Assembly (NCBI GenBank): GCA_005877615.1
Contig: VBOD01000115.1
Span: 1-38,277, forward strand
DNA from: Nitrospirota bacterium
Lineage (GTDB): Bacteria > Nitrospirota > Nitrospiria > Nitrospirales > NS-4
Direction of reading: 5' to 3'
Length of the DNA: 38,277 nucleotides
The notes beneath the pieces are model-generated. The model made no database searches and was not told the origin of the DNA. It saw nothing but the letters and a program-made list of their open reading frames with translations. Both the position numbers and the translations under genes were made by a program. The first letter of the stretch is position 1. Every line of letters begins with the position of its first letter. Positions 25,095 through 28,154 of the stretch are shown in pieces.

Positions 25095-27383
25095 TCAGCG
25101 CGACATGATCTTGATCAGGCCATCCGCGACCTTGGGGTCGTAGATGCCTTTGCCGACACCGCGGGCGATTTCGTCCAGGGCGACGTGGCGCTCCCAGGGG
25201 TCCCGGTACGGACGCCAGGAGATCAGCGCGTCGTACGCGTCGGCCACCGCCACGATCCGGGAACCGAGCGGGATGTCCTCGCCCTTGAGCCCGTCCGGAT
25301 AGCCCGTGCCGTTGTAGTTCTCGTGGCTGTGATACACGATCTTGATGAGCTCTTCGTTATCGTAGCCCATCTTCCGCAGGGTTCTGGCCCCTTCCACCGG
25401 GTGCATCTTCACCATGTCCAGCTCCCAGGAACTGAGGCTCCCCATGCGGTTGAGTAGATGATGGGGTACGATCTCCTTGCCGATGTCCGCCAGAAAGCCG
25501 GCGTGGAGGATGTCGAGCTTATCCTTATCTGGCAGGTTGAAATAGGTGGCGAGGGTGTAGGCGAAGATGGCGACCATCTTGGAATGGCCGATGCTGCCGT
25601 CCAAGGCCTCCACGGGCAGGATCACATCGGACGGGATCTGGATGAGATTCTGCACGTACTGGTACTCGTGCGCGAAGCCCTGCGAGACCTTCTTTCGGTC
25701 CTCGAAGGGATCCTTGACGCCGATGACCTCGTAGGCCTCGATGCGCTGCCGCCGGCCTTTGATGTTGAGCTTCTCGCTCGCGCGAAGCTTCAGGCCGGCC
25801 TCGGCGTACGCCAGCTTGAACTTCATCTCCTTCGGATCCAGGTGCAGGGCGCGCTCGAAATACTGCAGGGCCTCGACCGGCTCGTTGAGTTCGAGATGGA
25901 TTTGCCCGATCTGGAAATGGTGCAAGGCGTTGTTCGGTTCCTCCGTGACCTTTTCGTGGAGCGCCTCCAGCTGTCGCTCCTTGTCCGTCTCCAGCACTTC
26001 CTTGGCGGGCAGGTCGCGCTTCTTGCGGGCATCAATGAAGAGGTTGACGGACTCGTACGTGTACCGGTCGATCAGCACCTTGCCCGGCACGCAGGCTTTC
26101 TGCAGCCGCGCGGCGATGTTGACCACGTCCCCGATAGCGGTATACGACTGGCGCTTGCTTCCGACCAGGCCCGTGATGGTGGACCCTGAGCACACCCCGA
26201 TGCGCATCTCCCAGGGATAGTTCATCTTGGCCGTCTTCTCCTGCATCTTGATCGCCGCCAGCACGGACAGGATCCGGTAGGTCTCGATATCCAGCGGCGC
26301 CCCGAACTCGCACATGATGGCGTCGCCCATGTATCGATCGATGTGGCCGCGATAGGTCAGCAGGATGGGCTCCATGTCGCCGATGTAGCGGTTGAGATCG
26401 CGGATCACGACCTCGGGGGGATTCTGCTCGGAGTGGGTGGTGAAGCCGACGAGGTCGGAGAACAGGACGCTGACGTTGCGCTTCTCGTTGCGCAGCCGCC
26501 CCTCGATGATCAATTTGACCACAGAGGAGTCCATGGTGGAGTACAGCGCCTCCTCCACCTTGGCCTTGAGGGACTCGATGGATTGCTTGGACTTCTCCAG
26601 CTCCTCGGTCCGTTCCTTGACCTTGTATTCCAGGTTTTCGGCGTAGTCCTTCAGCGTCGCGTTGGCGCGGTTGAGCTCCTCGGTGCGCTCCCGCACCTTG
26701 ACCTCCAGGTTTTCGCTGTAGTCTTTTAGCGCCACGTGGGCGTGGTTAAGCTCCTCCTGCCGGCGCTGAAGCTCCTGATTCAGGAACGCCAGGTTATCGG
26801 CGCTGGCCTTCAGCGCCACGTTGACCACGTTGAGTTCATCCTGCTGTTTCTGGAGCACCTCGTTCTGCCGCCGTGTGGTTTCAAACTCCCGGGCCAGCTT
26901 CTCATGCAACCCTCCGACGACCGCGCCGGCCAGGACGAGGAAGGACCCCCAGGTTAAGACTTGAAGATACAGCGCGATCTGCGGGTCTGCCGCCAGATTG
27001 CCTTGCGACGTCGAAAACGCTTCGGGCCGCACGTACACGTACAGCAGCATCACCAGGAAGGAGAAGACGGCACCCAGCACGGCCTTCGTTCGGCCCAGGT
27101 AGTAGCCGGCCAGGATGATCGGCAGAAAGTAGAAGTTCAGGAAGGCGATCTTCTGCTCGACGAAGTAGTTGATCAGGACGGTCGCGACGAGCGTGAGCAA
27201 GACAAACGCCTGCTCGAAATTCTTGAGCAGGTAGGCTTTAAGCCCTTCCAGAGAGACATCGCGGAACGCTCTCGGAGCGACGGCATGGGGTCCGCCAGGC
27301 GGGGTGGGCGAAGCAGGCGGTCTCGCAACCTGCGGCTCAGGAGTGCTGGATTTCTGCGGCGTTGTCGAATCGGATGGGGCCAT
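25095..27383 (-). CDS. Membrane class III nucleotide cyclase with TPR and degenerate HD-GYP domain
   Basis: The 762-residue protein has a proline-rich cytoplasmic N-terminus (about 1-40), about four membrane segments (57-158) and a signalling coiled coil (165-285). In the coil an ALKDYSENLEVKVRERTEEL-type unit recurs. A class III cyclase domain follows (about 300-430): D310 in VLFSDLVGF and D354 in RYMGDAIMCEFG are the metal ligands, then SYTAIGDVVNIAARLQ. A TPR-like stretch (about 470-535) leads to an HD-GYP domain (about 590-762). In the latter the HD dyad reads LADIGK (A632, D633) and the HHE motif reads SHE (686-688), so two metal ligands appear lost. It probably makes cAMP and senses a ligand through the degenerate domain (inference). 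Confidence 0.9.
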   Translation of the reverse strand: MAPSDSTTPQKSSTPEPQVARPPASPTPPGGPHAVAPRAFRDVSLEGLKAYLLKNFEQAFVLLTLVATVLINYFVEQKIAFLNFYFLPIILAGYYLGRTKAVLGAVFSFLVMLLYVYVRPEAFSTSQGNLAADPQIALYLQVLTWGSFLVLAGAVVGGLHEKLAREFETTRRQNEVLQKQQDELNVVNVALKASADNLAFLNQELQRRQEELNHAHVALKDYSENLEVKVRERTEELNRANATLKDYAENLEYKVKERTEELEKSKQSIESLKAKVEEALYSTMDSSVVKLIIEGRLRNEKRNVSVLFSDLVGFTTHSEQNPPEVVIRDLNRYIGDMEPILLTYRGHIDRYMGDAIMCEFGAPLDIETYRILSVLAAIKMQEKTAKMNYPWEMRIGVCSGSTITGLVGSKRQSYTAIGDVVNIAARLQKACVPGKVLIDRYTYESVNLFIDARKKRDLPAKEVLETDKERQLEALHEKVTEEPNNALHHFQIGQIHLELNEPVEALQYFERALHLDPKEMKFKLAYAEAGLKLRASEKLNIKGRRQRIEAYEVIGVKDPFEDRKKVSQGFAHEYQYVQNLIQIPSDVILPVEALDGSIGHSKMVAIFAYTLATYFNLPDKDKLDILHAGFLADIGKEIVPHHLLNRMGSLSSWELDMVKMHPVEGARTLRKMGYDNEELIKIVYHSHENYNGTGYPDGLKGEDIPLGSRIVAVADAYDALISWRPYRDPWERHVALDEIARGVGKGIYDPKVADGLIKIMSR

Positions 27384-27565: not shown

Positions 27566-27898
27566 TCAGGAGGAGCCATGCGCGTGGCTCTCAGCGTGAT
27601 GCTGCGAATACTGTCTTTCTTGCCTATCGAGCCAGGGAAACAGCCTTTTGATCAACTCAACCGCTGCCTTCGGAATCGGTACGTGTCCGTTCTCCCACAT
27701 GCTGACAGTGGTGCGCGATACCCCCACGATCTTGGCGAGAATCGCCTGGGAAAGTTTGAGCCGACGCCGGATGGTCACAAGGAGGGCCGGTTCCATGTAA
27801 CTCTGCCCCTTCGGGCGACCACGACGCCGTGGGCCGACTGGCCCCTCTTCCGTTGGAGAAGACTTGCTCAAGGCGGCTTGTTCGTCTGCGTCGCTCAT
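27566..27898 (-). CDS. XRE-type helix-turn-helix regulator
   Basis: The 110-residue protein has a basic N-terminal patch RRRGRPKGQS (about 25-34, AT-hook-like). An XRE/Cro-type HTH follows at about 38-88: LKLSQAILAKIVGVSRTTVS, WENGHVPIPKAAVELIKRL. The C-terminus is short and charged, too small for a sensor domain. The upstream region has a promoter pointing toward it, an inverted repeat over the -35 box and a strong hairpin between promoter and gene (27922-27974). Expression may thus be autoregulated or attenuated. Only a GGGGG-type weak ribosome-binding site is visible. Confidence 0.85.
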   Translation of the reverse strand: MSDADEQAALSKSSPTEEGPVGPRRRGRPKGQSYMEPALLVTIRRRLKLSQAILAKIVGVSRTTVSMWENGHVPIPKAAVELIKRLFPWLDRQERQYSQHHAESHAHGSS

Positions 27899-27913: not shown

Positions 27914-28026
27914 AAAAGATAAAGGCGCAATCGCATGCTCCTGCTTAGCGCTGGGAGCGAATCGATTGCGCCTTCAACTTACAGGCCTCGAAGCCTGCCC
28001 GCTAAGGCTGACTGAAGAGCAAAATT
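27914..28026 (-). ncRNA. Candidate small RNA or 5' attenuator leader of the XRE gene
   Basis: A good minus-strand promoter (28033-28061) should start transcription near 28026. About 50 bases on begins a strong hairpin followed by TTTATCTTTT (27914-27923 on the complement), a Rho-independent-terminator-like end. The product would be about 113 nt. Inside it, a CAGGC/GCCTG hairpin with a TTCG-containing loop and a second pairing (CTTAGCG with CGCTAAG) add structure. Either this is a free small RNA, or it is the leader of the XRE gene, which begins at 27898, and the hairpin attenuates. No RNA family was recognised. Confidence 0.5.
27922..27974 (-). terminator. Long hairpin with T-rich tail between tRNA-Lys and the XRE gene
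   Basis: AAGGCGCAATCG (27922-27933) and CGATTGCGCCTT (27963-27974) are perfect 12-base inverted repeats with a 29-base loop that itself contains GCTCC/GGAGC arms. On the minus strand the stem is followed by TTTATCTTTT. It would end transcripts from the promoter at 28033-28061 or readthrough from the tRNAs. Confidence 0.7.
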
Positions 28027-28032
28027 TCCTTA

Positions 28033-28061
28033 ATTACACGACCTTGACGGGATTTTGTCAA
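28033..28061 (-). promoter_or_regulatory. Promoter upstream of the hairpin and XRE gene, with inverted repeat over the -35 box
   Basis: On the minus strand TTGACA (28061-28056) and TGTAAT (28038-28033) are separated by the ideal 17 bases. CTTGAC (28042-28047) and GTCAAG (28057-28062) on the plus strand form an inverted repeat that covers the -35 box and most of the spacer. This is a plausible operator for the adjacent XRE regulator. Confidence 0.65.

Positions 28062-28078: not shown

Positions 28079-28154
<76 letters not shown>

Follow-up and report, generated by a model that had tools for sequence, protein, structure and literature searches.

A dispersed leader RNA family of Nitrospirota and Planctomycetota with mutually exclusive folds and a candidate response-regulator partner

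ANTAR proteins account, to our knowledge, for nearly every case of a two-component system acting on RNA. In the BglG/LicT/SacY systems, a protein-stabilised RAT hairpin with internal loops excludes a terminator; c-di-GMP (GEMM) riboswitches are leaders of genes for chemotaxis, motility and second messengers, and many of them contain a terminator; and the sigma28-dependent sRNAs of E. coli are represented by MotR, FliX, UhpU and FlgO. In ANTAR systems (EutV, NasR, AmiR), a response regulator or another RNA-binding protein acts on small tandem leader hairpins, the second of which overlaps the terminator stem, and the co-regulated genes are read through; for EutV, antitermination is achieved by the phosphorylated dimer, which stabilises the nascent hairpin (PMC3369931, PMC8934654). 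GEMM leaders are described in PMC9262584, and the sigma28-dependent E. coli sRNAs combine a FliA-type promoter with a link to motility (PMC10578931). Neither the RNA nor the protein domain considered below turned up in searches of the main texts of open-licence papers.

The window, i.e. the whole 38,277-nt stretch of DNA analysed, contains the following features at the locus under study.

28079..28154, minus strand: tRNA-Lys(CTT), the upstream neighbour (ARAGORN)
28056..28061, minus strand: -35 box TTGACA (sequence; same in three same-genus species)
28033..28038, minus strand: -10 box TGTAAT, 17-nt spacer from the -35 box (sequence; same in three same-genus species)
27914..28026, minus strand: leader RNA of ~113 nt, from the predicted start to the end of the terminator tail (covariance model match)
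27566..27898, minus strand: XRE/HTH_3 gene, 110 aa (Pfam HTH_3, 3e-08)
25095..27383, minus strand: class III nucleotidyl cyclase + TPR + HD-GYP protein, 762 aa (Pfam Guanylate_cyc, 6.8e-22; HD_5, 1.9e-31)

A first-pass annotation had placed here a TTGACA-17-TGTAAT promoter on the minus strand, a 12-bp perfect stem with a T-rich tail, and a small RNA or attenuator between the 3' end of tRNA-Lys (28079) and the XRE gene, a position borne out by the coordinates. The promoter (28061-28056 and 28038-28033) is real, with hexamers and spacing identical across three species of the window's genus; it went unlisted in a strict promoter scan because its -10 box lacks an A at position 2. The stem, formed by AAGGCGCAATCG (27974-27963) and CGATTGCGCCTT (27933-27922), is present together with its tail and was missed by a terminator scan because its loop is long. 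The leader 5' end (28026) is deduced from the promoter position. In the window genome, the best match to FliA was at the level of other sigma factors; the lack of FliA, ascribed to the window's genus as a whole, is consistent with the sigma70-type promoter conserved there. Fold prediction, proposed at the outset as a check, gave -56.1 kcal/mol for the 131-nt window RNA (z -3.5), far stabler than shuffles, none of which was equally good. The TTCG-type hairpin noted earlier (GCAGGC-UUCG-AGGCCUGU) is likewise real. The CTTAGCG/CGCTAAG pairing fared less well: it exists in the window copy alone, is not kept in relatives and therefore lies outside the conserved structure, so that a conserved pseudoknot of this kind was ruled out. 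A CsrA-type GGA loop was also rejected, the GGA not being conserved among relatives.

A covariance search in relatives, likewise among the checks proposed, uncovered a dispersed RNA family in two phyla, Nitrospirota and Planctomycetota (Ca. Scalindua and one further genome, G591). A DNA search of 98 relatives, largely draft genomes like the others compared, matched 10 genomes besides that of the window, and the three genus mates each had several copies. Alignment of 17 copies yielded a consensus with compensatory changes, and the covariance model built from it was used to search genomes; the window leader scored 102 bits (E 4.7e-33). Strong copies occur across the Nitrospirales and also in f33, a distant family of Nitrospirota, where two genomes have them. 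After inspection, 33 of 396 sampled Nitrospirota genomes were counted as carriers; matches weaker than ~1e-6 (other Nitrospirota classes, Brocadiales) were not counted, being mostly ordinary terminators on inspection. Ca. Scalindua harbours many copies, in places in tandem and 250-660 nt apart, as at L183:7910-8265 (~250 nt) and L190:11505-12278 (~660 nt, with a short regulator gene between). When 84,980 species were scanned with 17-mers, no contigs other than those of Nitrospirae and Scalindua had the element in complete form; a phage-borne element was rejected, with 0 exact-pattern matches among viral contigs. When the window was searched against Rfam, three tRNAs alone exceeded the gathering score and the best sub-threshold matches were plain hairpins, so that a known Rfam family or riboswitch identity was rejected for the leader. 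The window leader is one member of an uncatalogued, dispersed, structure-conserved leader RNA family.

The same element is found without a nearby tRNA in dozens of loci in two phyla. This bears on the simplest account of the locus, a plain intrinsic terminator of the tRNA-Lys transcript followed by an unrelated promoter. Although the element lies just downstream of tRNA-Lys and points in the same direction, a terminator would not be expected to keep a hairpin ahead of it through compensatory change, as this element does; the account is extremely improbable and, as a full explanation, is refuted by the comparative data.

The conserved structure comprises two mutually exclusive folds, made up in the window of the following parts.

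28004..28008, minus strand: P1a 5' arm GCCUU, pairing with AAGGC at 27970-27974 (seen in nascent folds)
28001..28003, minus strand: P1b 5' arm AGC, pairing with GUU at 27976-27978
27999..28000, minus strand: conserved internal-loop GG, facing AA at 27979-27980 (alignments A5, A7)
27981..27998, minus strand: P2 hairpin GCAGG-loop-CCUGU, loop ending in G; five pairs, all changed on both sides
27975, minus strand: conserved bulged G (alignment A7)
27963..27974, minus strand: switch segment AAGGCGCAAUCG, i.e. the terminator 5' arm and, with its first 5-6 nt, the antiterminator 3' arm (alignments, folds)
27922..27933, minus strand: terminator 3' arm CGAUUGCGCCUU (fold and alignment)
27914..27921, minus strand: U-rich terminator tail (sequence)

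In the family as a whole, the antiterminator consists of CGCCUU/AAGGCG, a bulged G, AGC/GUU, a 2x2 GG/AA loop, GCAGG/CCUGC and a loop of 5-6 nt ending in G. It formed in 33 of 48 truncated RNAs folded as nascent transcripts; at full length, all 48 formed the terminator (AAGGCGCAAUC/GAUUGCGCCUU-U(n)), which takes up AAGGCG. Among 47 aligned sequences, 89.5% of antiterminator cells were paired, compared with 30-43% in slid controls, and double-change cells numbered 31 against a shuffle mean of 6.2, a count that none of 500 shuffles reached. The stem-arm compensatory change set as a test beforehand is thus present in the relatives' alignments. P1b shows it as an exchange of AU for GC in 8 sequences (AU:29, GC:8). 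Variation in P1a is almost confined to the 5' arm (C to U opposite G), with a single double change, because its 3' arm AAGGCG is also bound to pair in the terminator. P1 had 85.6% of its cells paired in the same sequences; taken alone, it showed no excess over shuffles in the number of covarying pairs or in pair types and is statistically weaker because AAGGCG serves two partners. In one copy (L133:10617-10751), an extra perfect hairpin, TGGGGACAG...CTGTCCCCA, lies inside the terminator loop and is possibly a mobile repeat. A trp-type leader-peptide attenuator was rejected, since inspection by eye revealed no ATG between the promoter and P1 of the window leader (alternative start codons being possible).

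Gene calls around the RNA took the longest ORF in each case, and the gene starts are accordingly approximate. The nearest homology-supported downstream gene lies on the same strand in 49 of 50 loci and on the opposite strand in one, a bias partly inherited from co-directional chemotaxis clusters; in the loci with a divergent upstream gene, it is co-directional in six of six. The products comprise chemoreceptors (MCP), HD-GYP proteins, CheA, histidine kinases and response regulators, in Scalindua CheY-like regulators and chemoreceptors (sequence judged by eye), and in family f33 ExbB, FeoB and FeoA, with a DtxR-type repressor gene alongside. In Nitrospira-type loci, the leader is preceded by FliA-type promoters (TCAAG-N15-CCGATA), which begin at a fixed place, between -64 and -52, in 27 of 48 loci (background, 0.31 per kb); most of these loci have no second FliA-type promoter ahead of the downstream gene.

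Of the two functions offered at first for the window RNA, attenuator or leader is well supported, because the exclusive folds are conserved, the genes are co-directional and the XRE gene ATG lies 15 nt beyond the terminator tail; the arrangement found is that of an attenuator, in which terminator and antiterminator exclude each other and the gene that follows points the same way. A free small RNA is less likely. It would be a promoter-terminator unit, sigma28-driven in Nitrospira, that pairs with mRNAs in trans and whose position ahead of signalling genes is incidental. Its own promoter and strong terminator, the conserved UUAG and AAGUUGA stretches and the several copies per genome would suit such a role. 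However, conserved alternative pairing would be pointless in a finished small RNA, the downstream gene keeps its direction even where the upstream gene is divergent and in most loci lacks a second FliA-type promoter, and the gap from tail to ATG in the window is only 15 nt; we regard this possibility as quite improbable. The family resembles the sigma28-dependent sRNAs of E. coli in its FliA-type promoter and motility link, but those are UTR-derived and trans-acting, whereas it forms a leader with an antiterminator. If the leader acts by attenuation, the terminated ~113-nt transcript should accumulate as its off-state product.

In Nitrospira, the gene immediately upstream of the RNA encodes a response regulator with a C-terminal domain of ~50 residues, for which neither Pfam nor NCBIfam returned a family match. 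Its motif is C-x4-CP...VLxxTKxxFxSK, with C-x4-CP, VL, TK, F, SK and R invariant, and AlphaFold gave a low-confidence helical model (pLDDT 59.5). A profile of the domain detected it in 47 of 396 Nitrospirota genomes, namely in 28 of the 33 RNA-positive and 19 of the 363 others (p=1.9e-25, a value that overstates the evidence because related genomes are treated as independent). By coordinate comparison, domain and RNA lie within ~0.5 kb of each other in ~25 genomes.

Family f33 and the planctomycetes provide more independent support for the proposed link. Only two of 20 f33 genomes carry the RNA; both encode a standalone domain protein of ~95-100 residues 45-50 nt upstream of it (L109:10390-10674, minus strand; L143:5681-5983, plus strand), and the profile search listed no domain in the remaining f33 genomes. 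These small proteins contain extra cysteines and a histidine (CxxCxxxxCPH) besides a TKxxFKSK motif and are possibly metal-sensing. Three Scalindua genomes have the domain; each is RNA-positive and encodes it on an RNA-bearing contig. In planctomycete G591, the gene for the domain response regulator and the RNA diverge, an orientation unlike that in Nitrospira.

In the draft genome of the window itself, which is 90.5% complete, the search for the domain gave no match better than E 0.09. It likewise failed to detect the domain in four Brocadiales genomes that are strongly RNA-positive (G418, G466, G472, G474) and in four RNA-positive Nitrospira-family genomes (G312, G326, G368, G375). The idea that the neighbouring response regulator is irrelevant, raised by its absence from the window genome, was dropped in view of the domain in three genus mates and its standalone form in f33: the genus mates (G001-G003) all encode it, G002 and G003 on the same contig as an RNA copy, the order in G003 being RNA - 245 aa - kinase - regulator. 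Conversely, 19 domain-bearing genomes lack a counted RNA; in some a degenerate RNA adjoins the gene, in Nitrospira genus g8 none. At L248, L249 and L250 of this genus, the domain regulator is kept and the adjoining leader RNA is unrecognisable; the targets of the g8 regulators may lie elsewhere or have diverged.

RNA-positive genomes without a detectable domain protein would fit a riboswitch in which P1-P2 forms a small aptamer and a second messenger or metal directly sets the choice between terminator and antiterminator. Such a switch would also accord with the conserved unpaired nucleotides (GG/AA, bulged G, loop G), the terminator platform in the leader and the cyclase, HD-GYP and feo genes downstream. 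Yet the conserved unpaired positions are very few for an aptamer, the targets (chemotaxis and iron) are too mixed for one obvious ligand, and the RNA is tightly linked to a single protein domain, its standalone form included, so that we consider a riboswitch unlikely. From GEMM leaders in particular, the family differs in its structure, in its lack of an Rfam match and in its tie to a specific protein domain.

The unnamed domain is probably the switch of the leader RNA, and the RNA resembles that of ANTAR systems: P1 shares AAGGCG with the terminator, and a further hairpin, P0, abuts P1 in 33 of 58 copies (shuffle mean 10, maximum 18), which points to a tandem-hairpin target. P0 has a pentaloop ending in G in 21 of 58 copies (shuffle mean 0.9, maximum 5); in the window copy, it is weak or absent, with at best 3 bp. 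ANTAR hairpins, however, carry hexaloops with A1 and G4 in both, and in the leader RNA P0 loops are mostly NNNNG pentaloops and P2 loops have 5-6 nt ending in G (UUCGAG in the window). The second hairpin differs further in its 2x2 GG/AA loop and bulged G, and the family sits in other phyla, before other target genes. No ANTAR domain (PF03861) was detected by Pfam in the associated response regulators or standalone proteins (for L216, among matches up to E 10), the regulators matching Response_reg only, plus weak sub-threshold noise. Membership of the ANTAR family was rejected on account of the absent domain and the different loops. With BglG, LicT and SacY, the leader family has in common a hairpin that contains internal loops, competes with a terminator and is proposed to be stabilised by protein; its targets are not sugar genes, the loop arrangement differs, and no BglG, CAT-RBD or PRD protein was found among the proteins scanned.

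The system is best read, from sequence comparison, as two-component antitermination that would work in an ANTAR-like manner with another domain and another RNA. We judge it fairly probable that the RNA is a transcription-attenuation leader switched by the response regulator with the unnamed domain, or by the small standalone protein in iron loci. In the window, polymerase starting from the TTGACA/TGTAAT promoter would make the P1-P2 hairpin first, sequestering AAGGCG. If P1-P2 were not stabilised, AAGGCGCAAUCG would pair with the later CGAUUGCGCCUU and transcription would stop ahead of the XRE and cyclase/HD-GYP genes. The stabiliser would most likely be a dimeric response regulator, replaced at iron loci by the small standalone protein, whose putatively helical C-terminal domain, once the protein is phosphorylated or has sensed metal, would bind the hairpin and thereby permit read-through. 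The sequences themselves show the two folds, the covariation in P2 and P1b, the gene order, the promoter types and the co-occurrence with the domain; from these we infer direct binding of the RNA by the domain, control by phosphorylation, and read-through rather than a function as free sRNA. In the window's case, kinase and regulator may act in trans, or may have been lost or missed in assembly.

A wider proposal, which we hold only tentatively, is that the domain is an antiterminator of a kind so far undescribed, binding an RNA family of its own and used as a response-regulator output for signalling genes and, in a standalone metal-responsive form, for ferrous-iron uptake. Its output would then gate chemotaxis, two-component and second-messenger genes, in Nitrospira on top of sigma28, and the CxxCxxxxCPH protein would be a metal-responsive antiterminator of ferrous-iron uptake. 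A second, unrelated domain-RNA pair would mean that two-component control of RNA arose more than once. Between sigma28 and the expression of chemoreceptors there would then be a further, post-initiation layer, both in Nitrospira, with its major nitrifiers, and in anammox planctomycetes. Experimenters are offered a defined candidate protein-RNA pair.

The cyclase/HD-GYP gene is likely the second gene controlled by the window leader. The XRE gene behind the leader is kept in G002 and partly damaged in G001 and G003 (loci L127 and L130), where the HTH core has been lost in-frame and the C-terminus is changed, respectively, and the RNA is intact; this suggests that the real target of the leader in the window's genus is the HD-GYP/cyclase gene. 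The window protein it encodes (25095-27383) unites cyclase, TPR and HD-GYP regions, an unusual combination of second-messenger activities.
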